The position numbers were made by a program, and so were the translations under genes. 64,000 bases of DNA from Corynebacterium mustelae (GTDB taxonomy: Bacteria; Actinomycetota; Actinomycetes; Mycobacteriales; Mycobacteriaceae): NCBI RefSeq assembly GCF_001020985.1, contig NZ_CP011542.1:2976001-3040000 (forward strand). Direction: 5' to 3'. Of the stretch, positions 31,431 to 48,504 are shown in pieces. The notes under the pieces were generated by a model. It was not told the origin of the DNA and did no database searches. It worked only from the letters and a program-made list of their open reading frames with translations. Positions within the stretch are counted from its first letter, which is position 1. Every line of letters begins with the position of its first letter.

Positions 31431-31474
31431 ACCTCGTACCTCCAACGTCAACCCGGTGTGTTTTATTACAACCT

Positions 31475-31539
31475 GTGTGCTGCGAAACCATGCCGCAATC
31501 CTCTCCAGCGCTGCCCCATATCTCACAATCGCAGCACAC
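31475..31539. repeat. Intergenic inverted-arm element, copy 5
   Basis: Arms GTGTGCTGCG (31475-31484) and CGCAGCACAC (31530-31539), 65 bp end to end. Confidence 0.85.
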
Positions 31540-31580
31540 ACCAGAGCTAACCATTATGAGGCTGCAAGCCACCTTCCACC

Positions 31581-31645
31581 GTGTGCTGCGAAACTCCGTG
31601 TAGATTGCAGCAATGCACCCCGTACAACCACACAACGCAGCACAC
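31581..31645. repeat. Intergenic inverted-arm element, copy 6
   Basis: Arms GTGTGCTGCG (31581-31590) and CGCAGCACAC (31636-31645), 65 bp end to end. With copies 4 and 5 it fills most of the 349-bp gap between the convergent lipoprotein gene and the nine-gene cluster. Confidence 0.85.
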
Positions 31646-31650
31646 ACAAA

Positions 31651-31688
31651 AGCCCAAGAAGTTTTATGGGGGTTAAGCTTCTTGGGCT
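31651..31688 (-). terminator. Terminator of the 31.7-48.2 kb cluster
   Basis: An 11-bp perfect stem AGCCCAAGAAG (31651-31661) with CTTCTTGGGCT (31678-31688), followed on the minus strand by TTTT. It lies 14 bp after the last stop of the cluster. Confidence 0.85.
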
Positions 31689-31702
31689 GTAGTAGCGAAA
31701 AA

Positions 31703-32161
31703 TTACTGACCAAACCACGCGTTATTGCGTGGTAACCACACCATGCCACCAGCCACGGCCCCGATAAGGCTAAGCGGCCACAGGCTAGTCACAATGTAGA
31801 AAAAACCAATGATGCTGGTAGCTGACACCAACCAGCGAGACCAGAACCTAGCCTTAAGCAAACCCACAGCACCGATGGTATTGACGATGCCAATAACTAC
31901 GGCGATAAAAACAACCAGGTCGCGGGCATTGGATCGAGTGGTGAACTCGTTGAAAAGCAGCCAGAGCATAACGCAAGCAACAAGGAGATACACCGCGGCT
32001 GCCAACTTCACGATGAACGGAGCATCCCACATGCGTACGGCGGCGAATGGTGGGTGTTGACGGCTAACAGTGGAGCTACCAACCACTTGGTAAGCGTAAT
32101 CAGCGCCGGTGTGTAATTCCTGCTGTTTAGGTGGGTCGGCGAACGGGTCACGAAAACTCAT
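31703..32161 (-). CDS. Small membrane protein of the GTPase/tubulin/vWA cluster
   Basis: A 152-residue protein with an N-terminal cytoplasmic tail beginning MSFRDPFADPPKQQ, which carries the cluster's DPF-acidic motif. Three to four membrane helices follow (about 51-70, 79-102, 112-128 and 130-145). It is the last gene of the cluster, 14 bp after the GTPase stop, and is followed by a terminator. Function unknown. Confidence 0.6.
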   Translation of the reverse strand: MSFRDPFADPPKQQELHTGADYAYQVVGSSTVSRQHPPFAAVRMWDAPFIVKLAAAVYLLVACVMLWLLFNEFTTRSNARDLVVFIAVVIGIVNTIGAVGLLKARFWSRWLVSATSIIGFFYIVTSLWPLSLIGAVAGGMVWLPRNNAWFGQ

Positions 32162-32175
32162 CTAGTCCTCATTCC

Positions 32176-33174
32176 TTACATCAATACCCTGCGTTCTGAG
32201 AGGAACCATCGAAGCGGATCCAAGACCCGGTACGGGGCGATTCCTTTTCGATCCAAATTCTCACCACGAGGTGACTCCCCCAAAGCGGAAACCGCAAAGT
32301 AGGAAAGCCGCTCGGGAACAGCACGATACGCATGGGCCATCATGTTTAACAGTCGATCAGCTTCCAACTTGATCAGTAACGATTGGATCTCTAAGTGCAA
32401 TACCCATTGACTGTGGTAAACGTAATTGAAGCCCGTATCGCGCCGAAAGCCAGCACCCAGATTCCCCATGATGCTTTTCCACTCCTGCTTATCTTGCAGA
32501 CGCTCTAACTCCTGCAAGGTGTCAAACTTGGAGACCGCCACCGCCAACTTCGGCCGAGAATCACCTAAAAGACGCACAATATTGCGAAAAACATCTTCCG
32601 GATTTCCACCCAATTGGCGTGGAGTGGGGATAAGCCCCTGCAAATACGTGGCGATGCTGGGGACTTTCAGCGGATCGAAAAGGAAAATTACCAGGTCACA
32701 GTTTTTGAAAAACCGCATGGATAAAGGATCAACATTCGGGTTTTCCAAATCCTCACCAGCAACGTCGCGGATAACCAAGTAGTGGTGACGTGATACACCC
32801 TCCGGATCTGGCCAGTACCCGAGACTAAAAATAAACGGATCCCGCTGATAGGCGTCCTCATTCACGCTCGTGGGTGTAGGCGGCATGTGCTTGAGCTCTT
32901 GATACAGCGGCTTTTCATATTTTTCCTGGTACCGGATCCGCGTCGATTCATCAGCCGGTTCAATGGTGATGTGCGGGAATCGCTGTTGAGCAAGAAGTTC
33001 CAATTGCTTGATCACAACCGCAAGATACAGGCTCTTCCCGGAAGCGCGGGCACCAGCCATAGCCACACAAAAGGTCACGGATTCCGCCCAATCCGGCAAC
33101 AGCGGATTACCAGCATAGGATATTGTTTGACCAGGCTCTAACAATTCATAGGTGTCGGGGCAACACGCATACAT
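32176..33174 (-). CDS. TRAFAC-type GTPase-domain protein (DO-GTPase2-like)
   Basis: A 332-residue P-loop NTPase. Walker A is GARASGKS at residues 41-48, the switch II/Walker B region is IRDVAGED, and the specificity motif is VAVSKFD (S/N-K-x-D), together diagnostic of a GTPase. The N-terminal YACCPDTYE may be a worn zinc-ribbon remnant, a module I remember preceding this GTPase class. The gene is 3 bp after the vWA-like gene and in the same operon as a GAP1-N-like protein, the partner expected for such GTPases. Confidence 0.78.
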   Translation of the reverse strand: MYACCPDTYELLEPGQTISYAGNPLLPDWAESVTFCVAMAGARASGKSLYLAVVIKQLELLAQQRFPHITIEPADESTRIRYQEKYEKPLYQELKHMPPTPTSVNEDAYQRDPFIFSLGYWPDPEGVSRHHYLVIRDVAGEDLENPNVDPLSMRFFKNCDLVIFLFDPLKVPSIATYLQGLIPTPRQLGGNPEDVFRNIVRLLGDSRPKLAVAVSKFDTLQELERLQDKQEWKSIMGNLGAGFRRDTGFNYVYHSQWVLHLEIQSLLIKLEADRLLNMMAHAYRAVPERLSYFAVSALGESPRGENLDRKGIAPYRVLDPLRWFLSERRVLM

Positions 33175-33177
33175 GAT

Positions 33178-34155
33178 TTAGACACCCCCATCAGCAAACG
33201 GATTAGTGATAACAGCGACAGTCGGCTGCTTCAACGCGGCGGCAATGATCCGAGCATTATCCGCTATCAGACTATGATTCCCCTCGTTAAGCGCACTAAT
33301 CTGCGCATCATCCCACGGCACAAGTCTAAGCGGATATTCCGAGCCGTAGAGCTGATGGTAGTTACGCACTTCCGCCTGGGCATGCGTGCCGACAACCATG
33401 ACGATGGGGTCCGGACGTAGAGTGGCCAACACCGGCCGAGGCGAATCCGTAATAATGATCACGGATTGCTCAGAATCAGTAACTACCTCCACATTAGGTC
33501 GCCCCACCCGGACTGGCGCATGGGTCTTATAATCAGCAAGCTGGTTATCCATATCATCAGCGACAGTGATGTCGAAGTGATCCGCTATTCCCAACACCGC
33601 ATGCCATATAGCGCGCAGGGCAGAAACGGAAACCTGCGTGCACATGGCGGCGGAGGCATCAACACGCACCTGGAGTGAGGAAACAAAACATTCTGTAGCC
33701 TCAAGTGCCCGCAGAGCAGACACCATCGTCATCGCTTCACGCGGTAAATCAACCGCCACATTCGACCCAATCGCACTGATCGAAACAAAACCTGGCTGCT
33801 CGGGCAGAGGCTGGATTTCCCCAATGAGACGCTCACTTGCCCCATCGACACGAACGATAGGAAACTCCAGCCGTATGTGCTCACCAGCGGTCGGCTGCTC
33901 CGCCACCACGCTGACCGAATGCTCCGGCGGGAATTGTCCCCCACCAACAGGGCGCACCACGATGCCCACCCGGCTATCACAATCAGTTAAATACACCTGG
34001 GTCGGATCCGGGCGATTAAATTTAGCTGCGCCAGGGGTAACCAATTCCACATCGACGGCCGCGCCATGGACAAGCCACGCCCGAAGCCGAAGAAAACTAC
34101 CAATGGTCAAAACATGCGACTCACCATCACCAAGCGTGATCGTTTTCGGCGCCAT
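33178..34155 (-). CDS. Degenerate vWA-like / beta-rich protein of the cluster
   Basis: A 325-residue protein. The first 130 residues look beta-rich. The second half reads like a von Willebrand A fold: VRVDASAAM at about 165 resembles a first strand with a worn MIDAS (DASAA against DxSxS), followed by a helix and the strand VVTDSEQSVIIITDSP. The C terminus is TNPFADGGV, carrying the cluster's NPF-acidic motif. ATG at 34155 chosen because GGAG is nine bases upstream; ATG at 34161 is possible. Assignment tentative. Confidence 0.55.
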   Translation of the reverse strand: MAPKTITLGDGESHVLTIGSFLRLRAWLVHGAAVDVELVTPGAAKFNRPDPTQVYLTDCDSRVGIVVRPVGGGQFPPEHSVSVVAEQPTAGEHIRLEFPIVRVDGASERLIGEIQPLPEQPGFVSISAIGSNVAVDLPREAMTMVSALRALEATECFVSSLQVRVDASAAMCTQVSVSALRAIWHAVLGIADHFDITVADDMDNQLADYKTHAPVRVGRPNVEVVTDSEQSVIIITDSPRPVLATLRPDPIVMVVGTHAQAEVRNYHQLYGSEYPLRLVPWDDAQISALNEGNHSLIADNARIIAAALKQPTVAVITNPFADGGV

Positions 34156-34178
34156 CCGCATTCACTCCAATCCAGGGT

Positions 34179-35714
34179 TTAGTTCATCGGGGGAATCGAT
34201 TGTGATTGTTGGTTGATAAACCGCTGTCGCACAGCATCAATCGTCGGAGATGCTGGTTTTTCCGCCCGCAGCCGCTGCCGCAATTCACCCAAAACAGCCG
34301 CGATGCCAGGATGGGTTGGCAACGGCGACGTTTCATTAAGCGCATGCGCAATTGCGGTAGATTCAGCCGGATCGGTTGTAAGCTCTCCGAACAACCGCAA
34401 CGCGTGCTCAAAAACCTCTTCACGCTGCGCCGCATCCACTGCCACCACACTATCAGCACCATAAAAATGCGCTGGCAGACCATGAAGTAACACCAACACC
34501 AAAAACCCAGCCCGGATGGGAAGATGTTCTGTCAACGACAACAGCTCGTGTGCCCTAACCATCTGCGCAAAAGACTCAGGCCCTGGGTTTTGCTGCAACC
34601 TGCCATAGAGCTCCCGCGCTTGAAGCAATTCGGGGGTGGGCAATTCGTCAGGTTGTAACGGCGTCACCCACGCATTCGGCTGAGCCATGCTCGCAGGTGG
34701 TGGCGTTGGTGGCAACTGCTGCGATTGTGCAGACGGCAATGTGAGCGAAACTGCATCGTCTTCCGCAAAAAACGGATTCGCCAAGTGCTCGACACTAGGA
34801 GCCGTCAAATGCTGCAAAGCCATCGTTTGTGGCAATGATGCAGGTTGACTCATTGCCTCCCGATACCGGTACAGTTCATCCGGGATGGGCTCATCTGTAC
34901 GAACCAACAATGCCCCCGTGTGTGCCACCACAGGCGCAACCGCCGCGGCAGATTCCAACGGAACAATCGACAGCTTGCAACCAACATGAATGATTGACTG
35001 AATACGCTCAGGGGTTTCGTACGTCGAAAAGCTAAAATCCTCCGGCAACCCTAATTCACAGGCAACCGCAGCCACCCACAAGGCTGCTTCTGGCAGCGGA
35101 CAAGCCAAAACCACGCACCGCCTGGACACCGAGATCGTGGCGGCAATACATTGCACAAATTCTCGCCGGTATTTCGGTTCCACCTGCGAAAAATGAACCC
35201 CCAGTGGATTATCCCCCACCCAACCATCAGCGAACGCATCCACCACTTTTTGGTCAATCGGCCCTGGAACCGTCAACTCAGCAGGAATTTCCGCATTATC
35301 CACCTGAGTTTTACCAAACGGAGTGGGAATTTCCGGCGAATACATAAACTCCGCCGGGTGATAATCCCCCATGGAGACTTCGCCACAAACCTGGGCGAAA
35401 GTAAAAACATTACCTGGTCGACCCGTAGAATCCTGACCAGCTTGAGCAGACGCATAGAAAACGAATCCCGGCTGCGGGCCCAAATCCTGTTCCGCCCGAG
35501 GCAGCCACGCGAACCGACGTGGCAGACGGGCAATCACCTCAGCCGATGGATAGTTTCCTGGATTCTCCCCACCAACAATGGAGGAAGGTATCCATTTCCT
35601 GAGGTTATTAGCCAGATTTTCATCGACCACACCAGTGCGTTGGCCAACACCCCAACCTCCGGTGCGGTCATCGCGCCGGGAAAACGAAGCGTAACTAAAA
35701 GTACCGTTTAACAT
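34179..35714 (-). CDS. GAP1-N-like GTPase-associated protein
   Basis: A 511-residue protein. The N-terminal 250 residues (LNGTFSYASFSRRDDRTGGWGVGQ, FVFYASAQAGQDSTGRPGNVFTFAQV, RRCVVLACPLPEAALWVAA) match the GAP1-N pattern, the domain that accompanies DO-GTPases in bacterial conflict-type systems. A Pro/Gln-rich linker near 310-350 contains ANPFFAEDD. A helical C terminus follows. Expected to regulate or be regulated by the GTPase two genes downstream. The biochemical activity is not established from sequence. Confidence 0.7.
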   Translation of the reverse strand: MLNGTFSYASFSRRDDRTGGWGVGQRTGVVDENLANNLRKWIPSSIVGGENPGNYPSAEVIARLPRRFAWLPRAEQDLGPQPGFVFYASAQAGQDSTGRPGNVFTFAQVCGEVSMGDYHPAEFMYSPEIPTPFGKTQVDNAEIPAELTVPGPIDQKVVDAFADGWVGDNPLGVHFSQVEPKYRREFVQCIAATISVSRRCVVLACPLPEAALWVAAVACELGLPEDFSFSTYETPERIQSIIHVGCKLSIVPLESAAAVAPVVAHTGALLVRTDEPIPDELYRYREAMSQPASLPQTMALQHLTAPSVEHLANPFFAEDDAVSLTLPSAQSQQLPPTPPPASMAQPNAWVTPLQPDELPTPELLQARELYGRLQQNPGPESFAQMVRAHELLSLTEHLPIRAGFLVLVLLHGLPAHFYGADSVVAVDAAQREEVFEHALRLFGELTTDPAESTAIAHALNETSPLPTHPGIAAVLGELRQRLRAEKPASPTIDAVRQRFINQQSQSIPPMN

Positions 35715-35737
35715 TTGCCATCACTTTTTATACGAAA

Positions 35738-37888
35738 TCATAAACACAAACCGGACACTGCATCATCGTCAACAACGATGCGTTCACCGAGAACATCTTC
35801 TTCCCGGCCATCATCTTGGATAAACAACCGTAAGAAACCACCAGAAAAGCTCCGACAGTCGATCACCCAATGTCGGGCGCTTTCCTCAGCTGCCGTAACC
35901 GACCCCATGAGTGTATCCGGCACCAGCAATGAGCCGGGCTCACTGTATCCCGATTCGGTACTCGCGGCGCATTTTACGGGGGTACCGTCGCCGGGGAATA
36001 GGGGAAGTCGGAGCGGATTATGCACCAGAATAAACCGTGGTGGTTGTCGATCTTCAACACCATCGCGCCATAGCCACAATCGTGGATAGCGTAAATCGCC
36101 CACGATATATGGGTTCTTGTGATCGATGACGTACCGGTAGATCTTCAAACCGGCATACGTGATAATCGCAGGTTTCGCCTTTGTAGTCTGCCCCGCATAT
36201 ATGCTTTTTGGGGTTAAGGTTACCTCATCACCGAAACTGTTAAGATGCAGGCGGATGCCTCCCTGCCGATGATAATTCGCGGCCGTAAGCTCAACCGATT
36301 CACCTTGCTTCTGAGTCACCTCTACAAGATCAGCACCGAATGGCCAGTCAAACGTAATCAATTGACTGTCAACGCGTTGAATCAAAGTGGGCTCGTGAAT
36401 CTCACCAACCCGGTGCAATACTTTAAATTCGCCTACTAAAGATTGATCACCGACCACATTCACCGGCACGCAATACACCTGCGGCCAATCACTGGGCCAC
36501 ATGAGCTCAATAAAAACTGTTTCGCCTGGCTCTGACTCCGTAGTATTTATCCACTCTGTGGCGCCAAGCGCATCGTCGTCCGCCAGATAGCGACTATCGA
36601 CGGCTTGGTTGATTAGGTCAGGGGCAGGTTCGGAATTGGTGAGATAAATCTTCACCTCACCGGTTGGTGGTGCCACCCATTCCAGGGCAATTCTGTCGTT
36701 GTCGTCCTTGGGGACATACACGGCGCTTAAAAGCTCAACCGCCTGAATGTCCGCGCTGATACGCCGAGTGAAAACGGCACTCCCGTCACCCCGAATTGTC
36801 TTACCCCGAAAAACAATTTCCGGAAAGATTTGAAATTCATAGGTCCCACCCCGAACTGGCACGCTGCAAACAAAGCTGCGGGAATCTACCCCGTCGCGTA
36901 ATTGATGCGCCGGGAAATCAATCGGGTTATCAGCGTAGGCTTGACGCATGAACACCGCCATTGAGCTATGTCCCCGAAGCGGGGTCCACGTGCCATTAAC
37001 GATCCCATTCGATTCCACAATCGTGATGTCGTGTGGCGCAATCGCAATGCCTTGTTCACCGACGAAAATTGGCTGTACTTCCAGCAAACCATCCACAGTT
37101 GGCGCGGAATACGCCCACACCATGTAGTGCCGCATTCCGGCACCCGCAGCTATCTCATCCCGATACGCAGTTCCTTGGGTCAGCACCAATTGGGTTCCGG
37201 ACTCGGGACTTAGCGGTTGCTCACTGTCTGCACCAATAACCAGGTAGACGAGGGAATGTCCTGGTGGGATGGGGATAGGGTTCCAATGAATCAAGGCATG
37301 CACGGCACGATGCTTATCGACGTCGCCCGGTGCGGTTTGATCATCTGAGCGTTCAATCTCCACCTGAATCCCAGGAACAACGCTATCGGATGCACCCCAC
37401 TGATAGGGGACGAATTCATCCCGGCTTATCCCCAAAATGAAATCTGCCGGATTCACAACCCGGTGTCTGGCTTTCTTGCGTTCCGCCGCAGCCTGTAATT
37501 TTGCGGCAAGTCCGTCCAACGCTGGAGCAGTTTGAGTTGCCTCCACTACCTCCGCCTCGATACTTTCCGATTCCACCGGCTTTACCGGGCTGTGGTCCGG
37601 TTGCGGTAGCTCTTGTTGCAGTACCGCGGATTGGTCATGTACTTCATCCGCTACCTCAGGTCCTGTTTCATTATCAGCTACCGAATCGGCACCAGTATTA
37701 AGATGTTGCGCTAAATAGTGTTCGTAGGCGGTTTTATCACCTTGAAGGATCGCCGAGATTGCTTGAGCAATCGTATCGACCTCTGTGTGTCGAATCGCAG
37801 CCACGGCTTCTGGGGTTGGGTTGGTTAGTGCGGCAGCCTGAAGCAACTCCTCGGTGGGAATATCCCGCAATTGTTTTCGTAGCACCAT
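35738..37888 (-). CDS. Beta-sandwich multidomain protein of the cluster
   Basis: A 716-residue soluble protein. A helical N terminus (LRKQLRDIPTEELLQAAALTNPTPEAV) and an acidic linker precede about 550 residues of beta-rich sequence. Repeated HWNPIPIPPGHSLVYLVIG- and ALEWVAPPTGEVKIYLT-like strands suggest several fibronectin-III-like domains. It has no signal peptide, so these domains would be cytoplasmic. The start at 37888 follows AGAGGG at seven bases and lies 10 bp after the preceding stop. No enzymatic motif seen. Confidence 0.6.
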   Translation of the reverse strand: MVLRKQLRDIPTEELLQAAALTNPTPEAVAAIRHTEVDTIAQAISAILQGDKTAYEHYLAQHLNTGADSVADNETGPEVADEVHDQSAVLQQELPQPDHSPVKPVESESIEAEVVEATQTAPALDGLAAKLQAAAERKKARHRVVNPADFILGISRDEFVPYQWGASDSVVPGIQVEIERSDDQTAPGDVDKHRAVHALIHWNPIPIPPGHSLVYLVIGADSEQPLSPESGTQLVLTQGTAYRDEIAAGAGMRHYMVWAYSAPTVDGLLEVQPIFVGEQGIAIAPHDITIVESNGIVNGTWTPLRGHSSMAVFMRQAYADNPIDFPAHQLRDGVDSRSFVCSVPVRGGTYEFQIFPEIVFRGKTIRGDGSAVFTRRISADIQAVELLSAVYVPKDDNDRIALEWVAPPTGEVKIYLTNSEPAPDLINQAVDSRYLADDDALGATEWINTTESEPGETVFIELMWPSDWPQVYCVPVNVVGDQSLVGEFKVLHRVGEIHEPTLIQRVDSQLITFDWPFGADLVEVTQKQGESVELTAANYHRQGGIRLHLNSFGDEVTLTPKSIYAGQTTKAKPAIITYAGLKIYRYVIDHKNPYIVGDLRYPRLWLWRDGVEDRQPPRFILVHNPLRLPLFPGDGTPVKCAASTESGYSEPGSLLVPDTLMGSVTAAEESARHWVIDCRSFSGGFLRLFIQDDGREEDVLGERIVVDDDAVSGLCL

Positions 37889-37898
37889 GTTGCGCCCT

Positions 37899-40670
37899 CT
37901 ATACCAATCCATCGAAATCAGGGAAGACATTTTTGCCTTCGGTTAACAACGAATCTGGTCGTGTCTGCGCGGTTGCCTGCTCAGCATCGAAGACCACGGT
38001 GGTGGGATCCAAACCAGCCTGTGACTCCCCTACCAAATAAACCAGTGGCACCGAAGGGCTGAATTGCGTTACCGTCACGCTTTGGTTCAGATTATTGCTG
38101 GCTGTTCCGCTCACATCAACGGTAGACAAATTAGTGTCAATGCTGGTGGCATTCCTGCTTACTCCCGCCGCGTTGACGCACGCGTTGGAAAACCGCGATT
38201 GGACGGGGTCAAAATCGTGCAGTGGGCTTAAGAAGTCGTCGCGGCTGCTGGTTTTGACGGTGTTGTTTTCATAAAACTCCACGGTATTCACCGCCTGTTC
38301 AATACGCTGGGTGACCGACCGATTGTTAATGGTTTCCAACCACTTGTCTGCTATACGGTTACGGTCTTCTAACCGCTCGCTTACCGCGTAGTTGGCTACT
38401 TGATCCAAGATCGAGTTCGTGCCAGACCCAGGTTGGCCAAAAAGCTCAGCCATTCGGGTTGGGTTGGTTCCCTCGGCACGCTTCATTTCTGTGAAGGTAT
38501 CGTCCACAAATGATTGCAACGCAGCCCCTGCCCAACCGGGGCCAAAGAATTCTGACCGAACCTCATTGACCAATTCTGTCATATCAGAATCGCCAGCCAC
38601 CGCCCGACCCAGTTGAGTAGACCTGGGCAAGCCAGCCGTTGGAATACTCAGTGCCTTACTGGATTCGTCGGGTTTTCCAAACGGCCGTTCAAGCACACGC
38701 CCGATGATGGTATTCCAGCTTAGAAATTGCAGGTACGCGCCCGTGAGCCGGGTGACGTCTTGGATCGCGTCACAATAGTTCTGAGAACAAATCTGGTGGT
38801 TTTCCAGTAGCAATCGTTTTCGTTCGATCCCATCAATGATTCCGCGACGCGCCGACATGAACACCGCCATTTGGGTGCCCAGAATCACCCCGGTGATAAT
38901 CAGCAACAACAGCACGTACCAGCGCCAATCAATTCCTGGCCAGCTTGCGAGAAAGAAGCGCCAATCCGGCTTGTAGTAGCGGATCACGAAGTAGGTTAGA
39001 ACAAGAAACAGCGGTAGCCAGATGAAACTCAGCATGCGCAGTTTCATTGCCAATGCGCGGTTTTCCTTTTCGTAGTCGCGTTCATGGAGCGTGGCTACGT
39101 CGGCTTGAATAGCCTGCAACCTGCTCCAGGATTCCCCTACTCGGGAGCGAGCGGTATCTAAACGTTCCAGCAGATGGTTGCCCATCGCCCAGGCGAAACT
39201 AGAGGAATGGCGTTGCCGCCACTGCGCGAAATCCTCACGGATCCGTATGATGGAAGAATCGGTGGATTGGGTCGCCACATAAGTGAGTTCGTTTTCAAAG
39301 ACTCGGGCTCGATACACATCGAATGGCAGAATATGGGCATCGGACTCATTCATACCCACTAGATCTTTTAGGATCGGGTGATACCCATTGAAGGCTTGTG
39401 ACGTGTCCGGAACCACATCGCCCGGTCGACGGGCGATCATGGGGTTACTGTTGTTGTCGCGTGGTCCGGCTAATTCGCCGTCTAGCCGCTCAGCCCCGTC
39501 GACAAGCGTAACCGCCGCTTCTGTATAGTCTTGCCACAGCATGGATAAACTAGGTTCGGGCTCGACTGTAAAACCATTCCGTTGCACCTGTTGCTGAATG
39601 CTGTGGGATTGTTCGCGTAACTGCGTCATCGACGCAGGCCGACCGGAGCTGGAGCCCACAACGACCTCCACAACGGATTTTTCACCATACAATCCACGTT
39701 GGATAGCCGAGGCTGCATTGTCAGTGACTGTACCTTTGATCGAATCCGCCCACCGGCGCGGGGTTCCGAAGACCGCGAGGGAAAACTCCCGGATGAAGGA
39801 TTTCACCGCGGCAAATCCGTCTTGCCTGATACTGGCTACATGTTTTTCTGCCTGTGGCACAGTGGTTAAGTTTGCCTCGTGCTTGGCAATAATCCCGGTG
39901 GTATAGCGGCGTGCTACTTCGGCGGGATCATTGATGAAAACAGTGTAGCGGCCGTCCCTAAAAGCCGTGAGGGGCAATTGCTCCGAAATATCAACCACTC
40001 GGCGTACCAATTGATCTTCCAGCTGGCTGGCATCTATGGTGCGATGGTATGCCCGGGCCAGCCGAAATGCGGATTTAGGGCCGGTGGATATTGCGTGGCC
40101 CGTGTCGTCTAACACGGGGATCGTCGTTGAACTGCGCCACAGTCCGCATAGGCTACTGAGCGCTGGTGCGAACACTTCAGCTGCGCCGCTAGGATCAGAT
40201 GCGCGGTAAAGCGGGCTTAACGACGACACCGGGCTGTCGGAATCCTCCGGAGCCAGCGCTATGGTGGACCAGCCTTCACGCTCTATGGGTGGATGCGTCG
40301 GGTGCGGCAATCGAGGCAGAAGCATACGAATCCGAGAAACACGGCCCGCAACTCGATTTTCAACTTCGGCCAGCCACCGATCTATCTGCGAAAAACTGGT
40401 TTCAGCCGGATCATTGGTTATTTCTTCCAACGCAACCACTAAAACGGTGCCGCGTACTTCCCGCAGCGCGGCATCAATGGTGAGCAACGGTTCGGCCGAG
40501 TAACTTCCTATCATCCGCACGGCGGGAGAAAACACGTCGCTTACGGTGTCAATCCACATAAACTGCTTCAACCGACCAAGGGTGGCCATGTCGGATAACG
40601 TATGTCGCATTTCGTCAACCACGAGGCCGTGGCCTAGAACCACCACTTGCGTGTCATCTTTGTTGCTCAT
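37899..40670 (-). CDS. Large membrane-anchored cytoplasmic protein of the cluster
   Basis: A 923-residue protein. An N-terminal alpha/beta region (VVVLGHGLVVDEMRH, TVLVVALEEITNDP) and helices precede two membrane helices near 556-620 (LSFIWLPLFLVLTYFVIRYY and YVLLLLIITGVILGTQMAVFM). A helical C-terminal region ends in VFPDFDGLV. Its start overlaps the stop of the tubulin-like gene (ATGA), implying a coupled complex. No family recognised. Confidence 0.6.
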   Translation of the reverse strand: MSNKDDTQVVVLGHGLVVDEMRHTLSDMATLGRLKQFMWIDTVSDVFSPAVRMIGSYSAEPLLTIDAALREVRGTVLVVALEEITNDPAETSFSQIDRWLAEVENRVAGRVSRIRMLLPRLPHPTHPPIEREGWSTIALAPEDSDSPVSSLSPLYRASDPSGAAEVFAPALSSLCGLWRSSTTIPVLDDTGHAISTGPKSAFRLARAYHRTIDASQLEDQLVRRVVDISEQLPLTAFRDGRYTVFINDPAEVARRYTTGIIAKHEANLTTVPQAEKHVASIRQDGFAAVKSFIREFSLAVFGTPRRWADSIKGTVTDNAASAIQRGLYGEKSVVEVVVGSSSGRPASMTQLREQSHSIQQQVQRNGFTVEPEPSLSMLWQDYTEAAVTLVDGAERLDGELAGPRDNNSNPMIARRPGDVVPDTSQAFNGYHPILKDLVGMNESDAHILPFDVYRARVFENELTYVATQSTDSSIIRIREDFAQWRQRHSSSFAWAMGNHLLERLDTARSRVGESWSRLQAIQADVATLHERDYEKENRALAMKLRMLSFIWLPLFLVLTYFVIRYYKPDWRFFLASWPGIDWRWYVLLLLIITGVILGTQMAVFMSARRGIIDGIERKRLLLENHQICSQNYCDAIQDVTRLTGAYLQFLSWNTIIGRVLERPFGKPDESSKALSIPTAGLPRSTQLGRAVAGDSDMTELVNEVRSEFFGPGWAGAALQSFVDDTFTEMKRAEGTNPTRMAELFGQPGSGTNSILDQVANYAVSERLEDRNRIADKWLETINNRSVTQRIEQAVNTVEFYENNTVKTSSRDDFLSPLHDFDPVQSRFSNACVNAAGVSRNATSIDTNLSTVDVSGTASNNLNQSVTVTQFSPSVPLVYLVGESQAGLDPTTVVFDAEQATAQTRPDSLLTEGKNVFPDFDGLV

Positions 40671-43600
40671 ACCAAACCACCAAATTCACCGAAATCAGCA
40701 GAGCCACTGGACCTTTCGTCGTTTAGATTTCCAGCATCAAATACTGGTGCCGAATCAGCTGGGGGTCGGGCAGCTACAATCTTCGCCTGATCTAACATGG
40801 CCTTTAGTTGGCGGATTACCGCCAACACATCCGGTGCAAAATCCCGATAAAACGGCATATTCGACGCATGTTCCCTGCTTGGCGGGTTTGCCCAGACTTT
40901 TTCTGCAGTTGTGGCACCAGGGAAACCATTGCTGGGGGTGAGCACGAATTTATCGGCTACTGCTCCCGCTCTTGTCAGCGCCTCGGTTATCATCTCGGCG
41001 CGGTCTTCAATACCATCACCTACCACTTTATTGTCCCCAGCCGGGAACACTCCGTCGCGGAGGAATTGCGCAATATATCCCACTGCGGGATGCTGAATAC
41101 CGCCCTGGCTATTCGTTGGGTGTTGAGCGGAGTCATCATAGATTCCACGCAGTGCCCAGTATGGGCGCAGCGATTGCGCTAGCTTTCCGGTTGCATCCTT
41201 GTTATGCGATTCAGCATAGGCCAACAGAATCGACTCTATGACAGCGGGCATCCAGTCGACTGAATTTCGCATGTGCGACGGTGGCGTCAGCATCGGCTGT
41301 GGGAATGGTAACCATTCATTGCCGTCAAAGACCCAGGCACGTGCGTCTTTTTGCCCTTGATTGTGTACGTATACTCGCCCGGTGGCTAGGCCCAGAATCC
41401 AGCCTGCCACCAACGCCCGGCGTTCGTCATCGGATAGCGGCAGCGCTGCAGGCAGTGGCCTGGCCCGGCGTAGCATCCATGCGTTTTCTTTGTCCATTCG
41501 GGCGGACCAATCATGGGAAATCGCGGGCAATAGTGAACTGAACACAATTGGTGAATAGTTCGGGTAAGAGCCGAAAACATCGATGCGCTGCACCTTTTTC
41601 GCGTCGGAAAGCGACTCAACGAATACTGTCTTGGTTTGATCATGCAGGTGCGGGACGGCATTGAGGACGTCGGAAAGCGTATCGGCGGCGGTAAGGTGCT
41701 GGAATGGAATCTCCGAGAAACTGTACCTGTAGGTTACATCCGAGCCGTGCACCAGGCTCACCATCGCCGCATTGACTCCGGCAAGCGGCCGGGCCTGGCT
41801 TAATGCGGTGGAAAACGCCGAGCGGAGCCGGTTGAGCCGCTGTTGGTATTCCACATCGTTGACCGACTCATCCTGGGTCATGTAGGAACGCAGATCCATC
41901 GAGATAAACCGCTCGAAATGATAACCCGTGCGGTTAATCCACAACCGAGCTCGGCCAAGCAGATCCGCCGGGCGAATCTTCGCCGCAAATACCGCCGGGC
42001 TGGATTCCCGGATCTCACCACCTCCGGGCGGGCTTTGGAGATGTTTAGAAACCCAACCTGCCCGGTTACCGGACACTTCCGCGCGAATCGATGGTGCTAG
42101 TGTGTCCTCCAGCGCTTTAACCGCATCAGTGCTTTCCCACTTACCAACAATCACGGAGCGAGCCGCCAATCGAACCGCTTGGCTTAAATCAAAAACCGAA
42201 GGGTCGGAGACCTTGACCGTTTCTATCAACTGATTGGCGTAGTCGATTGGGAACGAGTCCACCTCGGTAATCAAAATCTCATTGGCAGAACCCCGGAACC
42301 GGTCGCTGATCCGTTCATCAGTATCAGTAGGCCACGCCACCGGGTCCGTTGTGGACACGTCTGCCAGGTGTGACACGGTGTCTTTCTTTCGGGCAGCTTC
42401 GGAAAGGTCAACGTGGGCGGTTTCCAACTCCCGCATTAACCGTTGCAACGCAGTGACCCGAAAGTCCTCTAACACCGGGTGTACCACACGCGCCAACGCC
42501 ACCAGCATGTAGGTGCGCAATTGCGGCCGGTATGCAGCTGCAACCGCGTCGAGGATTTCCCCGCCACCGTGCACTCGTTTATTGCCGCTTAACGGATGCA
42601 ACAACGTGTCAATATCCGCAGGCTTGGCTGCCGGGTTCATACCAACAGCATTCCTCACGGCGTTGTTGAGTGCCACCGAAATCCCCTGCTGAATGATGTC
42701 ATTAATCTCACCCAATGCTGCCTCAACAAACGGGACCCCCACAACGGATAGTTCCCGCTCTGCCGCCGCGACGACGCTGTCAAGTAACCAATCGGCGTAT
42801 TCGTATACGGCTGCATAGGCCGCGTTATTAAGATTTGTCGCTAGGGTATGTGAAATATTCTGGTGACCAAGACGCTGCTCAATTTCACGGGCCCAATCCC
42901 TACTTTGTTGTCCATCGCTTGGTTGTGGCAGCGCTTGGCGCAGCCAATACACTGATGCCGAAACTGCGTTTGTTATTTCCGTTTCGAAATTAGCTTCCAA
43001 CCAACCAGATATCATGGAGCCGGTAGGCTGTGTACTTCTGAATTCCGGGTTAATGCGCAATTCCTGAAGAATATATGGCATCCGTTCCGACAATTTCGCC
43101 TTTAGCTGTTCTTCGCCAGTTGCGTGGTTTGTTGGATCGATATGCCCGGTTAGCAATCGGTCGAATGCGCTTCGTGCCAACCGTTGTGCGGAATATTCCG
43201 CATATTTATCTCGCCCCATACTTAATTGCGCATATCCCATGGAACCCCATGGGATACCATCCCATTTCAGCTGTGCCGGATCAGCCCATCCCAAGTAATC
43301 TCGGTTAGCTCCTGGCGATCCGGTATTTGCTAGCGAATACTGAACGAAGCTATCACTTGCCTGGTCAGAATACATCAACGCGCTCAGAGCCCGACCTAAG
43401 CCTCGGTACACCCCAGTGGAGCTGCCGTCACCGAATTTCGCGCCTTCCTCCCCCATCCGGTTACCGATCGGAAACATGCGACCGAAAGTAATAGGCCGGT
43501 TGGCGCCATTAATCCCCAACGCTTCGTATAACTGTGCGTCAGAAGCTGCTGCGGCTCCGGTTTGGCTGGCGATCGCTTCACCAAACATCGCGAGCGAATT

Positions 43601-44299
43601 AGGCCACGTGCCCACCATCATTTCCGGCGGAATTTCGGAAAAAACCTCCGGGGTAAGCATGAAAACCCCAGTATGTTCTGGTTTGGCATTGGGAAGGGTG
43701 GATAGGATGCGGCACACATCCAAAAACATTGAAGCGCCCGCACCGCCTGCCATAGAGGAGATGATGAGAATCACTGGTGATGTGTTGTGTGAATGCGAAT
43801 TCTTGCCAGAAATCGCGAAGTTGAGTTCGTCTAGTTCAATGTGCGCCTGCGTGGTGTTGAGCGCATCCAGTGCACGGTTTAACCCATCTTGGATTTTCTT
43901 TATCGCAGGAATGGTAAGCATCCGCCCCAGCGCCCGATACTGGCCTGCACCTTCGGATACGGGGGTAGTAATCGCGCCAGGCACTCGTGGTGCCCAAGTT
44001 GCTACTTCTTTCAACCCGCCGTTGTGGATTAATTCGCTGGTGGTGCCGGTGTCAAAGGTGGAATACCGTTGTCTGCTGCCAATGCCAATGTACTTACCGC
44101 CGCTTTGTTGCACATTGGGCAGATTATCTGGCCCGGCTTCTGGCGCTATGGGAACGTCAATGGTAACGAATTGCCAGCACTCCGGCAGTCGTGTGCGATC
44201 CGGTTGGATCGTGCGAAGCAACGCCTTGAGCTGGTCGATCATATAGGCTTGTGTTTTTGCGCCAGAGCCGCCACAACCAACTACCAAAAATTTACGCAT
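40667..44299 (-). CDS. Tubulin-like NTPase-domain protein
   Basis: A 1210-residue protein. The N terminus LVVGCGGSGAKTQAYMIDQL resembles the first nucleotide-binding loop of tubulin/FtsZ proteins. The segment ISSMAGGAGASMFLDVCRIL around residue 186 matches the tubulin GGTGSG signature. This is the Tubulin_2-like class that occurs beside vWA and GTPase genes in actinobacteria. The long C-terminal 800 residues are helical and unrecognised. It ends in FGEFGGLV. Gene context and N-terminal motifs support a cytoplasmic polymer-forming or scaffold role; polymerisation is inference. Confidence 0.78.
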   Translation of the reverse strand: MRKFLVVGCGGSGAKTQAYMIDQLKALLRTIQPDRTRLPECWQFVTIDVPIAPEAGPDNLPNVQQSGGKYIGIGSRQRYSTFDTGTTSELIHNGGLKEVATWAPRVPGAITTPVSEGAGQYRALGRMLTIPAIKKIQDGLNRALDALNTTQAHIELDELNFAISGKNSHSHNTSPVILIISSMAGGAGASMFLDVCRILSTLPNAKPEHTGVFMLTPEVFSEIPPEMMVGTWPNSLAMFGEAIASQTGAAAASDAQLYEALGINGANRPITFGRMFPIGNRMGEEGAKFGDGSSTGVYRGLGRALSALMYSDQASDSFVQYSLANTGSPGANRDYLGWADPAQLKWDGIPWGSMGYAQLSMGRDKYAEYSAQRLARSAFDRLLTGHIDPTNHATGEEQLKAKLSERMPYILQELRINPEFRSTQPTGSMISGWLEANFETEITNAVSASVYWLRQALPQPSDGQQSRDWAREIEQRLGHQNISHTLATNLNNAAYAAVYEYADWLLDSVVAAAERELSVVGVPFVEAALGEINDIIQQGISVALNNAVRNAVGMNPAAKPADIDTLLHPLSGNKRVHGGGEILDAVAAAYRPQLRTYMLVALARVVHPVLEDFRVTALQRLMRELETAHVDLSEAARKKDTVSHLADVSTTDPVAWPTDTDERISDRFRGSANEILITEVDSFPIDYANQLIETVKVSDPSVFDLSQAVRLAARSVIVGKWESTDAVKALEDTLAPSIRAEVSGNRAGWVSKHLQSPPGGGEIRESSPAVFAAKIRPADLLGRARLWINRTGYHFERFISMDLRSYMTQDESVNDVEYQQRLNRLRSAFSTALSQARPLAGVNAAMVSLVHGSDVTYRYSFSEIPFQHLTAADTLSDVLNAVPHLHDQTKTVFVESLSDAKKVQRIDVFGSYPNYSPIVFSSLLPAISHDWSARMDKENAWMLRRARPLPAALPLSDDERRALVAGWILGLATGRVYVHNQGQKDARAWVFDGNEWLPFPQPMLTPPSHMRNSVDWMPAVIESILLAYAESHNKDATGKLAQSLRPYWALRGIYDDSAQHPTNSQGGIQHPAVGYIAQFLRDGVFPAGDNKVVGDGIEDRAEMITEALTRAGAVADKFVLTPSNGFPGATTAEKVWANPPSREHASNMPFYRDFAPDVLAVIRQLKAMLDQAKIVAARPPADSAPVFDAGNLNDERSSGSADFGEFGGLV

Positions 44300-44410
44300 T
44301 AATTCTCCTCAAAGGATATTTCGTTCTAAGCCACGACCGGCTCCTTCATATTTCACGGTTGTGTGTGGCACAACCGTCCAAAGTAAAAGGGCCCGACATC
44401 GATGCGATTG

Positions 44411-47110
44411 TTAATCTGCGAAGGGGTCTCGCGCACCACCTAGTGGCGGGTCTTGGGGTTTTATGACCGGATTACTAGTATCGGGAATCTCCGACTGTGG
44501 GCGTTGGGTGCCTAATCCGTGCGAACCACCGTACGGCCCGTTGCGGTCACCGGCTGTATCCATGCTGCCACCTGTGCCGGTATGGTGCGTTACGACGCCA
44601 CCAGACCGGATGGTTCCGCTATCCCCGAATGGGTCAGCCTGTGCCAGATTCTGTTCATCAGTCGCATCCAAGACCACGGATGGAACTGCTGGTCTTAGTT
44701 TTTCGAGGAAATCTGGAACTTTCTCGGTTATGTCTTGGGATATGCGCTGTAATTCTTCATCGCTGATATTGTGGTCGACAATAACTAGGATATGCCCTCG
44801 GTTTTCGTCATGCGCATTGCCGAACAACACCCAATTTCCGCGCAGCGCCAGCGGCAACCGGGCAGCTTCTCCGATCTGTTTACCGCTACTTGCAATCGCC
44901 GGGCTATCGACGGTCACTGCATAAGCTGCGGTAAACGGATTTAGGTCCCGGCCTACGGTTATCTCTTTGCCTGCCAATACCACCCGGCGCGGCTGTGGCG
45001 TTACACCAGTTGTATTCAAAACTACGGATTGATAATCGAGCTGAACTCGGCCACCAGTGTCTTCGCGCACCACCGCCCCATCGGGTGTGCGTGTTATGGG
45101 GAAGCTGTATCCATGCAATTTGGTACCTGCCAAAACCCCGGTGACGTGTTTAATGATGTACAAAATCGCTAATGGAATCAGAATTCCCAACAAGATGGCG
45201 ATGATAAGCACCGCAACGAACACTGGGGGGTTCACCGGCGCGCGCATGCTGCCGCGCATATCCACTGACACTTCGCCGCTAGCGTTGTCTTCCAATGCCA
45301 TCATTTTCACCAACGCATCGAAAGCAAGCGGACCGTCCCGCAACGAATCCACGGTTATGGTGATGGGCAATTCACCACGATCGCCTTCCTTTAGTAATAG
45401 CGCTGAATCAGCACTATCGTGTTTTGCGGCTACGTTAACTGCGCCAACATTATCCGGGACAGTCATATTCTCTTTGATCCCTGCCGGATCGACCCAAAGC
45501 CTTCCTGGACCTTCGACGGGGATTGTGATGGTGGTTTCTTTCTCCTCAACCGCAAAATTAACTGTGCGAGGGGCTTTTGGTAGATATGCGGGGGAAATAA
45601 CTATTGGATATCGTGCCACCACCGGCGATAATTCGGTGCCGGGAGTCTCTTTGATCCCTTGAGTGGTAATGGTTGTACTCAGAACAATCTCACCCGTGGT
45701 GGGTTCAGCTACCTCAGCCAGGGCAAATTCCACCGACTCGCCGTTTATTATCGACTGCGGTTGTCCCATAGCCACCGGCGCACCAGCGGCTGGTACGAAC
45801 TGTGCAGAGATTGAAGCTTCCCCGTCCAATGCGCGGGGTTGACCATGCCTATCGACCAAGGTGGCGTGAATCGTATCATTGGTGGACAACCCAACGGTCT
45901 TGGTGTTGCTTAATTCCTTGACGACAGTGTTAAGGCCAGGGAATATCTGCATTTTCGCACTGTAATAGGTGTTCTTTTCACCCGTGGTCTTGTAACCAAA
46001 TGCCCACTGGCCAGCCCAATCGTCGGTCTTGGTTTTTTCCATAGCAATATCGACCATCCCGGGGACACTAGCGCCGAGTTCTGTTTCGATTGTGGCGCCA
46101 TTGACAGTGTGCTTCGGAGTTGTTAATTCCAGGGTTTGACCACCTGGAGTAATCAAAATCGGAATTAACGTTCCATCGGCGACTACCTCTTCTGGTTGGG
46201 AGGAAATACGCACCTCAGTGATGGAATTATCGAGTACAAATGTCAGCTGACTTTGCGTATCGCCTCGGTGTTCCACGGAGGCGGAATCTGGAAGAAGCGA
46301 ACGAAACGCCGCGAATAATCCCGCCGGGTTGGATTCTGCATTGAAAAACGCGCCGTTGGGTTCCTGCCCTGCCGCACAGTCGCTTCCTTCGGCCATTGAC
46401 CTCAGTAATTGTTCTGGTGAATCTTCCCCTTCGGGAATCAACCCGACAGTGAATAGGTGAACACCCGCGTCACGGGCCTTGGACACCACTCCATCACCGC
46501 TGCATACAGCTTCTCGGGCGGCGATGTCCGCTTGGCTGTCACCAGGAACGGTAAGCAAGCCATCGGTGAAAAAGAGGATGCTGCGACAGGAATCCGGGTC
46601 TGGTTGCGCAGCAATATCCGCCAGCGCACCGGATAATGCGACCCCGTAGTTGGTGTAGAGATCGTTATTGCGGTTTTCAAAACCAGAGATTGCGGTATCC
46701 AGCGCGGCGGGATTTTGCGACACGTTGGTCCATTCCCCGTAGGTTTCGGGGTTGGAACGATACCCCTCGCCGAAGCCTGCGAGTTTGACGTTAATGTCCG
46801 CGTCGATGTCGGCTGCGGATTTCCCGAGTTGAGCTACCAAATCCTCAACCGCAGCCACCCTAATGTTTTTCGGGTCCGATGCAGGTCCACCGTTATGTCC
46901 CCGCAGAGAGGCCGACTCGTCGATGACAAAAATGATGTCCGCCTTTTTCTTGGTGGCGATACATGAATTCAATCGTTCCAGATTGCGGACACCAGTTTCG
47001 GAAACGTTGTTCTGCTGCGCGAATGCGGCTGGGGCCGCGACCAGCCCGGTTAAGACCGCGGCGGCTATAACTCCTATGGTTTTTTGAACGGTGTTGGCAA
47101 AGTGTTTCAC
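44411..47110 (-). CDS. Secreted, membrane-anchored vWA-domain protein
   Basis: An 899-residue protein. A signal peptide ends near Ala31 (AFA-QQ). The vWA domain (about 55-265) has an intact MIDAS, IDESAS (D64, S66, S68). About 350 residues of beta-rich extracellular sequence follow. One membrane helix lies near 618-645 (FVAVLIIAILLGILIPLAILYII). The cytoplasmic tail of about 250 residues includes DPFGDSGTI and ends in ARDPFAD. It is the obvious surface sensor or adhesin of the cluster, with a metal-dependent ligand site outside and a docking tail inside. Confidence 0.85.
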   Translation of the reverse strand: MKHFANTVQKTIGVIAAAVLTGLVAAPAAFAQQNNVSETGVRNLERLNSCIATKKKADIIFVIDESASLRGHNGGPASDPKNIRVAAVEDLVAQLGKSAADIDADINVKLAGFGEGYRSNPETYGEWTNVSQNPAALDTAISGFENRNNDLYTNYGVALSGALADIAAQPDPDSCRSILFFTDGLLTVPGDSQADIAAREAVCSGDGVVSKARDAGVHLFTVGLIPEGEDSPEQLLRSMAEGSDCAAGQEPNGAFFNAESNPAGLFAAFRSLLPDSASVEHRGDTQSQLTFVLDNSITEVRISSQPEEVVADGTLIPILITPGGQTLELTTPKHTVNGATIETELGASVPGMVDIAMEKTKTDDWAGQWAFGYKTTGEKNTYYSAKMQIFPGLNTVVKELSNTKTVGLSTNDTIHATLVDRHGQPRALDGEASISAQFVPAAGAPVAMGQPQSIINGESVEFALAEVAEPTTGEIVLSTTITTQGIKETPGTELSPVVARYPIVISPAYLPKAPRTVNFAVEEKETTITIPVEGPGRLWVDPAGIKENMTVPDNVGAVNVAAKHDSADSALLLKEGDRGELPITITVDSLRDGPLAFDALVKMMALEDNASGEVSVDMRGSMRAPVNPPVFVAVLIIAILLGILIPLAILYIIKHVTGVLAGTKLHGYSFPITRTPDGAVVREDTGGRVQLDYQSVVLNTTGVTPQPRRVVLAGKEITVGRDLNPFTAAYAVTVDSPAIASSGKQIGEAARLPLALRGNWVLFGNAHDENRGHILVIVDHNISDEELQRISQDITEKVPDFLEKLRPAVPSVVLDATDEQNLAQADPFGDSGTIRSGGVVTHHTGTGGSMDTAGDRNGPYGGSHGLGTQRPQSEIPDTSNPVIKPQDPPLGGARDPFAD

Positions 47111-47125
47111 AGCGATGTCCTGACG

Positions 47126-47605
47126 TTAGTTTCCGATGGTCTTTGACAGCCAGAGGGCGATCTCAACGGCCGTTATGACGACCGCGATGGAACCAAGCGC
47201 AAGCGTTGCCCGCACCAAAAGGGTCTGCGTTGGGTTTTCGATATACAGTCCCGCCGCTTTTCGACGATTATCCGCGCCGATGTGTAAGCCCAATAAAATA
47301 AACCCTGCGATTCCTGCTAAAAACCACCCGATGATCGCCATGATCCGGAAAGCATCGTCTGTCGCACTGCCTCCGATGATTGGGGCCAATACCCCAAGCA
47401 CCACGGCAATTCCCACACTTAGTACCGCAGCTAGTAGAAACGGCCACGGGCCAGTCACCGGTGTCGGTAACCTCCGGGGTGATGCAGACATGTCCCCAAA
47501 GTCGCCGGGGACCTCGGTGCCGAAACCTGGTGCACCTGATTGGCCAGGTTGATTGGAAGCAAAAGGGTCAAAAGCGGCCGGGCTAGAGCCAAAATTTGTG
47601 GACAT
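47126..47605 (-). CDS. Small multi-pass membrane protein of the cluster
   Basis: A 159-residue protein with a disordered N terminus carrying AAFDPFASNQPGQSG. It then has four hydrophobic segments (about 52-73, 84-105, 118-122 region weakly, and 133-152). Fifteen bases separate it from the vWA gene, and AAGGAGG precedes the ATG. Unrecognised family. Confidence 0.6.
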   Translation of the reverse strand: MSTNFGSSPAAFDPFASNQPGQSGAPGFGTEVPGDFGDMSASPRRLPTPVTGPWPFLLAAVLSVGIAVVLGVLAPIIGGSATDDAFRIMAIIGWFLAGIAGFILLGLHIGADNRRKAAGLYIENPTQTLLVRATLALGSIAVVITAVEIALWLSKTIGN

Positions 47606-47681
47606 CGTGAAGTCCTCCTTGCGACGGAACCCCTCATTCTGCGGGGTTTCCTGTGGTTTTTCTTAACTGACCGTGACGCGA

Positions 47682-48200
47682 CTATCGCCTAAAAGAATAT
47701 CGGAACCGTCCACCATCGGTGATCATTTGAACCGCATCAATCAACCACCACACGAATCCCACAAAAAGCATCGGTAATCCGATAATGCTTAAGAAAATGG
47801 TGCCGGTGAGGACAGTCCCAAAGAAGAACAAACAAATCTGCGTAATGGCAATGGCGTTAAACCCGGTGTAGAGATTGTGGGCGCTGATAAAACCGAAGAA
47901 AAACCACAACAGAACCGCGATGGTTTTATCTTTAGTTGGTTCCATGACACCAGGCGCGAAGCCATATTGGGGTATTAATCCTGGTTGCGCGTATGTTTGC
48001 TCGACTGGAACCGAGCCGTAGTTCGGATCATGCATTCCTGGGGTGGTGCTGTAATTAATTGGGGTCTGATAGGACGTCGGCTGCGAGCTATATCCATCGG
48101 TGTTATACGGTTGCCCATCACCATAAAAAGCATCGCTCGAACCTGTAGGGGTTGGAAAAGGATTAGACAGCGGGTCTGGGGAATTATGGGCGTTCGTCAT
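47682..48200 (-). CDS. TM2-domain membrane protein, first gene of the cluster
   Basis: A 172-residue protein. The N terminus is rich in Asn, Pro, Ser and Tyr and includes PLSNPFPTPTG. The C-terminal part (PTKDKTIAVLLWFFFGFISAHNLYTG then a second and third hydrophobic segment) is a TM2-domain pattern. The ATG at 48200 has AAGGA nine bases upstream and was preferred over 48221, which has none. The operon promoter should lie in 48201-48330; a TAAGAT -10-like hexamer is there on the minus strand but is not certain. Confidence 0.65.
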   Translation of the reverse strand: MTNAHNSPDPLSNPFPTPTGSSDAFYGDGQPYNTDGYSSQPTSYQTPINYSTTPGMHDPNYGSVPVEQTYAQPGLIPQYGFAPGVMEPTKDKTIAVLLWFFFGFISAHNLYTGFNAIAITQICLFFFGTVLTGTIFLSIIGLPMLFVGFVWWLIDAVQMITDGGRFRYSFRR

Positions 48201-48405
48201 CGAAAACGTTCCTTCGGTCATTAAAGTTGTGCCGTTTCTACACCAGGCAATCTTAAATCTTACCTACAACATCGCGACCCAAATGGGGTTAGCGATGCCG
48301 TTTTCCTCACCCCCACTGGGTGAAACACGACGTCAAGAAGGAAACTGATTGCCCGATTTACTCCCCCAACCTCCCCCGGTTTTTCACTTTTGGTAGCACA
48401 AAACT

Positions 48406-48438
48406 AACAACCGGAAGTAGGAAACGATCTACCGGTTG
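48406..48438 (-). terminator. Probable terminator after the GH76 gene
   Basis: CAACCGG (48408-48414) pairs with CCGGTTG (48432-48438), and inner GTAG pairs with CTAC. On the minus strand it is followed by a broken T run. It lies about 65 bp after the GH76 stop. Confidence 0.55.
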
Positions 48439-48474
48439 CTGTGTTCAAATCCTAGCCACGACGCTCCTGCTTAG

Positions 48475-48485
48475 CGTCGAAAAGC
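48475..48485 (+). repeat. Dispersed 11-bp word CGTCGAAAAGC (intergenic copy)
   Basis: An exact copy between the GH76 stop and its terminator hairpin. A nearby CGACGCT (48460 region) could pair with AGCGTCG to form a short hairpin. Confidence 0.7.
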
Positions 48486-48504
48486 AAAACTGCCGACGAT
48501 CAGT

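Follow-up and report, generated by a model that had tools for sequence, protein, structure and literature searches.

A tubulin-type GAP1-N2 gene cluster of Corynebacterium mustelae with a fixed core order and matching C-terminal tails on two of its products

In actinobacteria, a tubulin-type GAP1-N2/DO-GTPase system has been described by Kaur, Burroughs, Iyer and Aravind (eLife 2020, PMC7159879). According to the main text of that paper, its components are GAP1-N2 and GAP1-M domains, a DO-GTPase with a Walker B glutamate, one tubulin with a long C-terminal region, a membrane-bound vWA protein with an FNIII part, and an FNIII-repeat protein fused to HRDC; two N-terminal zinc ribbons are usual on DO-GTPases (60%) and are not required, and TerD is named only in another system. 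Operons of the FtsZl1/vWA/GTPase type have been reported by Makarova and Koonin (2010, PMC2875224), with membrane remodelling as the function proposed in the text, and a DO-GTPase in a Psp context has been predicted to serve in membrane stress (PMC11237479). Here, we analyse a ten-gene cluster in a 64,000-nucleotide stretch of the Corynebacterium mustelae genome (the window; NZ_CP011542.1, positions 2,976,001 to 3,040,000). Its membership in the actinobacterial tubulin-type GAP1-N2 system is well supported. Across the loci that carry the tubulin gene, the cluster has an eight-gene core with one fixed order, which is new, and two of its products, the tubulin-like protein TUB and the large protein Y923, appear to carry C-terminal tails that match each other and change together between clades, a statistically strong and likewise new feature.

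The cluster occupies window positions 31703-48221 as ten open reading frames (ORFs) on the minus strand, all at the expected places in a list of ORFs with translations. In gene order, and together with the tail segments considered below, the features are:

47682..48221, minus strand: TM2-domain protein, 179 residues (Pfam TM2, E 7.8e-9); accessory, in 6 of 70 non-redundant loci by profile count
47126..47605, minus strand: m159, 159 residues, core; three transmembrane (TM) helices predicted by hydropathy and a disordered-looking N-terminal tail with FG/DPF motifs
47447..47605, minus strand: N-terminal tail of m159 (AFDPFAS, GFG, DFG), supported by motif enrichment
44411..47110, minus strand: VWA, exported vWA receptor of 899 residues, core (Pfam VWA, E 8e-8), with the metal ion-dependent adhesion site (MIDAS) DESAS
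44414..44743, minus strand: cytosolic tail of VWA with FG/WG/DPF-type motifs, ending in RDPFAD before the stop codon
40667..44299, minus strand: TUB, tubulin-like NTPase of 1210 residues, core (Tubulin_2, E 8e-41, residues 5-379)
40670..40693, minus strand: last eight codons of TUB (FGEFGGLV, then stop), a matched-tail peptide found by tail comparison
37899..40670, minus strand: Y923, 923 residues, core; in 70 of 70 tubulin loci
37902..37925, minus strand: last eight codons of Y923 (FPDFDGLV, then stop), the other matched-tail peptide from the same comparison
35738..37930, minus strand: FN730, 716 or 730 residues, core; at the position of the published FNIII component, in 69 of 70 tubulin loci
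34179..35714, minus strand: GAP1, 511 residues, core (GAP1-N2, E 4.7e-23; GAP1-M, E 1.2e-5); in 69 of 70 tubulin loci
33178..34161, minus strand: protein of 325 residues, or 327 in an alternative reading
32176..33174, minus strand: GTP, DO-GTPase2-type TRAFAC GTPase of 332 residues, core (Pfam, Walker A)
31703..32161, minus strand: m152, three-TM protein with the N-terminal tail RDPFADP; accessory, in 21 of 70 loci

The genes are closely spaced. Gaps of 76, 15 and 111 bp separate TM2 from m159, m159 from VWA and VWA from TUB; TUB and Y923 overlap by 4 bp (ATGA); Y923 is followed by a 10-bp gap if FN730 is read as 716 residues, or overlaps it by 32 bp if the upstream ATG (730 residues) is used; and the gaps after FN730, in order to m152, are 23, 17, 3 and 14 bp. 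The one-strand cluster of the original prediction, with its gaps and single ATGA overlap, is thus borne out by the ORF coordinates, as are the motifs read from it: GARASGKS and SKFD in GTP, GGAGAS in TUB, which also has GCGGSGAK, and DESAS in VWA. A GTPase, a GAP1-N protein, a tubulin-like NTPase, an exported MIDAS protein and a degenerate vWA protein do lie in one cluster.

Domain searches support most of these assignments. Both GAP1 domains pass the Pfam cut-off, and TUB, with a long region C-terminal to its domain, is the sole Tubulin_2 match in the genome. The profile searches proposed earlier matched Tubulin_2, GAP1-N2 and VWA; for the window GTPase the match to DO-GTPase2 (PF19993) is below the cut-off (E 7.5e-4, 19.7 of 27 bits), and the same profile matches 27 of 27 scanned GTPase rows at E <=0.01, the best at 2.8e-11, seven of these rows also matching DO-GTPase1. 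The Walker A motif GxRxxGK[ST] is found in 70 of 70 GTPase rows (68 from tubulin loci, two from tubulin-less ones), [ST]KxD in 67 and a D-x-x-GE motif in 69. Likewise, the T4 loop GG[AST]GAS of TUB and the MIDAS Dx[ST]xS of VWA are present in 70 of 70 tubulin loci; given this constancy, the catalytic and ligand motifs are not chance readings. A zinc-ribbon pattern (CxxC..CxxC) occurs in 2 of 70 GTPase rows; with ribbons on 60% of DO-GTPases according to PMC7159879, it is not counted as defining.

In a hydropathy scan, VWA shows a signal segment (residues 8-26), one TM segment (632-650) and a cytosolic C-terminal part; Pfam shows no FNIII part in it. Three TM segments are seen in m159 and in m152, two in the TM2 protein, and a two-TM hairpin in Y923 (540-558, 579-607); the one stretch flagged in each of TUB and GAP1 is taken as a buried strand or helix. 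The AlphaFold2 model of Y923 (pLDDT 80, pTM 0.62) comprises an alpha/beta N-domain, a long helical stalk and the two-TM hairpin. Any single Pfam family matches at most one of 30 Y923 rows, and NCBIfam gave only weak matches, far under cut-off, for the ten window proteins. One candidate identity of Y923, that of an alpha-pore-forming toxin-like protein, was rejected: its best Foldseek matches (MakA/AhlB) reach only E 0.02-0.3, a xenorhabdolysin match in NCBIfam (E 0.087) is far below cut-off, and the long helices make the likeness weak. Neither FNIII nor HRDC was found by Pfam in 31 FN730 rows; its position, right in 69 of 70 loci, makes it most likely the counterpart of the published FNIII component. 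Of the two large components held to be undescribed in the original prediction, the 923-residue protein still looks so, and the 716-residue one most likely is not, given its position and albeit without confirmation from Pfam. The profiles of m152 and m159 are weakly alike (hhalign probability 40, E 3e-4, 67 columns), so that these proteins from opposite cluster ends are possibly related three-TM proteins.

Conservation was assessed in two samples. Among 201 genomes of the family, Tubulin_2 was found in 24 (21 full-length) and GAP1-N2 in 24; each of the 21 with a full-length Tubulin_2 match carries GAP1-N2 7.5-10.3 kb away (start to start), the remainder being three genomes with GAP1-N2 only and three with weak Tubulin_2 pieces only. 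Within Corynebacterium, 73 of 242 genomes have Tubulin_2, and a comparison of the lists shows that the identical 73 carry GAP1-N2; both also match in the control genome, Corynebacterium glutamicum, a species that is safe to handle in the laboratory. The expectation that these genes co-occur is thus not refuted. For the locus comparison, 20-kb stretches were taken from the 20 other family genomes with full Tubulin_2, from 47 of 66 further genomes of the genus, from the three GAP1-N2-only genomes and from eight named loci, six of which were repeat contigs and were dropped. The final set holds 70 non-redundant tubulin loci including the window; some are close relatives, and statistical tests therefore use subsets.

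The eight-gene core is complete, in one order, in 68 of the 70 loci, the other two being cut by contig or stretch ends; FN730 is missing only from L003, which ends at a contig end. Core genes share a strand in all 70, and m159 always comes first. Y923 and m159 are invariant partners, and no description of m159 was found. Two loci (L043, L045) have a second short GAP1-like ORF, of 241 and 258 residues, after the GTPase gene.

The tails of TUB and Y923 were compared as ungapped C-terminal 8-mers. Within a locus, pairs such as LPGEGEF and LPGTGEF, NDLDDTF and SDLDETF, SMPGEDLF and DMPGEDLF, or PGLD and PGLD are seen, each running to the stop codon, as do FGEFGGLV and FPDFDGLV in the window. For 34 representatives with <65% TUB identity, including L003 (Y923 cut by the contig end) and the unmatched L005 and L076, the mean score is 10.1 within loci versus -1.8 between them (z 8.0; 0 of 5000 permutations), and the 27 other C-terminal pairs of core proteins on the same tree give z <=1.8. 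The signal holds for 14 representatives below 50% identity (z 6.1; 0 of 20000 permutations) and for clade averages over 69 loci divided into 6, 8, 10, 12, 15 or 20 clades (z 3.6-7.1); at 12 clades, the highest z among eight control pairs is 2.7 (FN730-GTP). The final residue is identical between the two proteins in 52 of 69 loci, and is hydrophobic in most loci. Where the two tails have the same residue, the codon is also the same in 114 of 230 cases, with 112.7 expected from codon usage. This points to selection acting on the peptide and not to recent DNA copying, and gene conversion at the 3' ends in recent time is accordingly not supported.

The cluster order and the tail match extend to at least one distant relative. 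In the actinobacterial locus L102, m159-VWA-TUB-Y923 is kept with the tails GDPLI and ANDLI, and the Y923 relative (L102:7437-10688, minus strand) has a trypsin-like peptidase domain fused to it (Trypsin_2, E 1.3e-28); no other enzymatic domain was seen on a relative of Y923 in this analysis. This fusion, with the position of the peptides at the extreme C-terminus and their mostly hydrophobic last residue, would also suit peptides that mark the two proteins for turnover or processing by a protease, in place of docking for assembly. We regard this as unlikely: a host protease is not expected to shift its specificity clade by clade with the cluster, and Pfam names no peptidase among the ten window products. 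FtsZ docks via its C-terminal tail. In the six genomes of eight in which FtsZ tails could be read, these are alike (five of VPxF/IPxF type, one DLPFS) while the cluster tails differ, which speaks against a common protease tag and led us to reject mimicry of the FtsZ tail.

A second pair of tails is related by motif type. The VWA tail and the m159 N-terminal tail have common FG/WG/DPF motifs (z 7.5), and the remaining tail-segment pairs reach up to z 3.7, probably due to composition. Relative to shuffles, motifs are enriched in both the m159 tail (z 12.2; at least one motif in 61 of 70 orthologues) and the VWA tail (z 15.6), and 68 of 70 VWA orthologues have such motifs in their last 60 residues, compared with a single one among 69 GAP1 ends and a single one among 69 FN730 ends. 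The narrower motif [DN]PFAD has three of its four genome-wide DNA matches inside the cluster and the fourth in a 124-residue ORF elsewhere; having been chosen after it was seen, it was set aside as a cluster-specific motif and is a hint only.

Overall, the matching tails hint at how the parts of the cluster may find each other. We lean, with modest confidence, towards reading the complete tubulin-type GAP1-N2 system as a membrane sensor-switch-assembly machine whose subunits are addressed by tail peptides. Judged by sequence, the fixed order brings together an exported vWA receptor whose MIDAS is intact, a small TM partner, TUB as the tubulin-like NTPase, the two-TM stalk protein Y923 and a switch module, the last predicted to consist of the DO-GTPase2, GAP1, FN730 and a probable TerF-like protein. 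We infer, with the original prediction, that an external MIDAS ligand may control a cytosolic GTPase/tubulin assembly. Binding of the ligand would change the VWA receptor, and the VWA and m159 tails, sharing one motif type, would dock on a common cytosolic binder. Since the C-termini of TUB and of the Y923 stalk share one co-evolving peptide, both would address one putative receptor site; such a shared address could tie tubulin assembly to the membrane stalk, or could make assembly compete with the stalk, and the GTPase/GAP1 pair would gate the tubulin-stalk connection. The output would probably leave through Y923, as the distant peptidase fusion may suggest. The weakest step is the biological role, for which a response to stress or conflict is most likely; a defence role is plausible and a prediction of the literature. 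More tentatively, and with somewhat more doubt than belief, the tails may form a peptide address code, in which TUB and the stalk carry one C-terminal key, VWA and m159 carry one multivalent FG/WG/DPF tail, and key and lock drift clade by clade; the four genes m159-VWA-TUB-Y923 would then be the elementary unit holding both pairs, to which the GTPase/GAP1 switch was added.

Several observations weigh against the machine so drawn. The nearest-neighbour tail test was neutral (own pair better in 16 cases, worse in 16, tied in 2), and a clade's own Y923 tail was the best match in 4 of 6, 5 of 8, 6 of 10, 7 of 12, 8 of 15 and 9 of 20 clades; the signal thus lies at clade level and reflects few shifts. 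The tails of L005, L076 and L079 are unmatched, and the match is loose in several loci beyond the genus; among distant relatives, L107 is unmatched (SLHD and FDAI), and the Y923 profile matches only two of nine distant actinobacterial loci. TUB has no match in 50,697 phage records, no effector was recognised among the window's own proteins, and in PADLOC-DB 2023 none of the ten proteins matched at E <0.01, with one weak match to a CARF-TM model at E 0.044. Clade-level covariation with a neutral nearest-neighbour test, alongside the z of 3.7 for other tail segments, is also what shared ancestry, composition or chance in short sequences might produce as an artefact. That the tail match is such an artefact seems very improbable in view of the low scores of the control pairs, both on the same tree and at 12 clades, and of the fact that descent alone gives two unrelated tails no reason to converge.

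The genomic setting bears on the role of the cluster. In a flanking-gene comparison, one further feature was delimited:

28194..48504, no strand assigned: 20.3-kb insertion between the fructose-bisphosphate aldolase and GH76 genes

Of 61 sampled Corynebacterium genomes, 57 have the aldolase gene and all 61 the GH76 gene; both lie on one contig in 56, at <1 kb in 49, 1.1-3.7 kb in 5 (54 of 56 at <=3.7 kb), 19.3 kb in genome G210 and 20.3 kb in the window. The junction in G210 (2408220-2428219) holds a 19.3-kb polysaccharide-synthesis island with a DDE transposase and no Tubulin_2. The window cluster is thus part of a discrete insertion, and the site, having taken up a different island in G210, is an insertion hotspot. 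No convincing integration repeats were found at the insertion ends, promoter and terminator sites were no more frequent than in shuffles, and Rfam gave nothing at the gathering threshold. The insertion also encodes, on the plus strand, a 443-residue protein without a Pfam family (28388-29719) and a lipoprotein-like protein of 288 residues in which an S-x-x-K motif can be read by eye (30487-31353). Upstream contexts fall into 26 groups in 69 loci (13 of them single loci) and downstream contexts into 28 groups in 50 loci, counts that are upper estimates because the flanks are short; stable clade-wide groups are among them. The picture is one of a cluster gained or moved between clades and inherited within them. 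Relatives of TUB are rare on plasmids (2 of 72,556 records); two Rhodococcus megaplasmids (NZ_CP110470.1, NZ_CP113952.1) carry a tubulin-like gene.

This picture has to be set against the possibility that no conflict system is involved, and that the cluster encodes a constitutive envelope or membrane-remodelling machine in which a tubulin-like polymer shapes the membrane under the control of the outside vWA receptor. This has been proposed for the FtsZl1/vWA/GTPase context in the text of PMC2875224, and it would suit the TM segments in five of ten products (VWA, Y923, m159, m152 and TM2, by hydropathy), the invariant catalytic motifs of the examined loci, the silence of PADLOC and the housekeeping types of the recognisable flanking genes. 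Patchy occurrence in 73 of 242 Corynebacterium genomes, the many upstream contexts and the clean insertion are unusual for a basic envelope function, and the distant peptidase fusion also speaks against it; we take it to be a doubtful but serious alternative.

If the address-code reading is true, a bacterial cytoskeletal assembly would be placed under an outside receptor and controlled by competing or co-docked tail peptides. For tubulin-type GAP1-N2 systems, a role as elaborate NTP-dependent switches of prokaryotes has been predicted; our literature searches found no experimental study of one. The matched tails would offer a first concrete handle on the connections between the parts, and missing core components can be named in Y923, m159 and the probable TerF-like protein, all of them invariant.

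TerF is a fusion of TerD and vWA in tellurite-type stress systems. The 325/327-residue protein is probably TerF-like; it differs in that its MIDAS is worn and its sequence likeness is weak, and Pfam named no other Ter protein among the ten window products. TUB resembles FtsZ in being a tubulin-family protein whose short C-terminal peptide may serve for docking, although the cluster tails differ from the FtsZ tails of the same genomes and do not track them. With the FtsZl1 operons it has in common an FtsZ-like protein, a vWA protein with a MIDAS, a diverged GTPase and TM proteins, and the T4-signature FtsZ-like N-domain adjoins a vWA gene and a P-loop GTPase as in those operons; GAP1 is not named in the text of PMC2875224, which also leaves the lineage-specific genes unnamed. 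Neither Y923, m159, a TerF-like component of the tubulin subtype nor tail motifs are mentioned in the main text of PMC7159879, and the zinc ribbons that it describes are seen in only 2 of 70 GTPase rows here. The agreement is nonetheless with that system: GAP1-N2 and GAP1-M, a DO-GTPase, a single tubulin-like protein with a long C-terminal region, a membrane vWA protein, a second large protein at the FNIII place and a membrane link are all present, so that what had been taken for a corynebacterial version is no speciality of the genus and is the actinobacterial tubulin-type GAP1-N2 system described in that paper.

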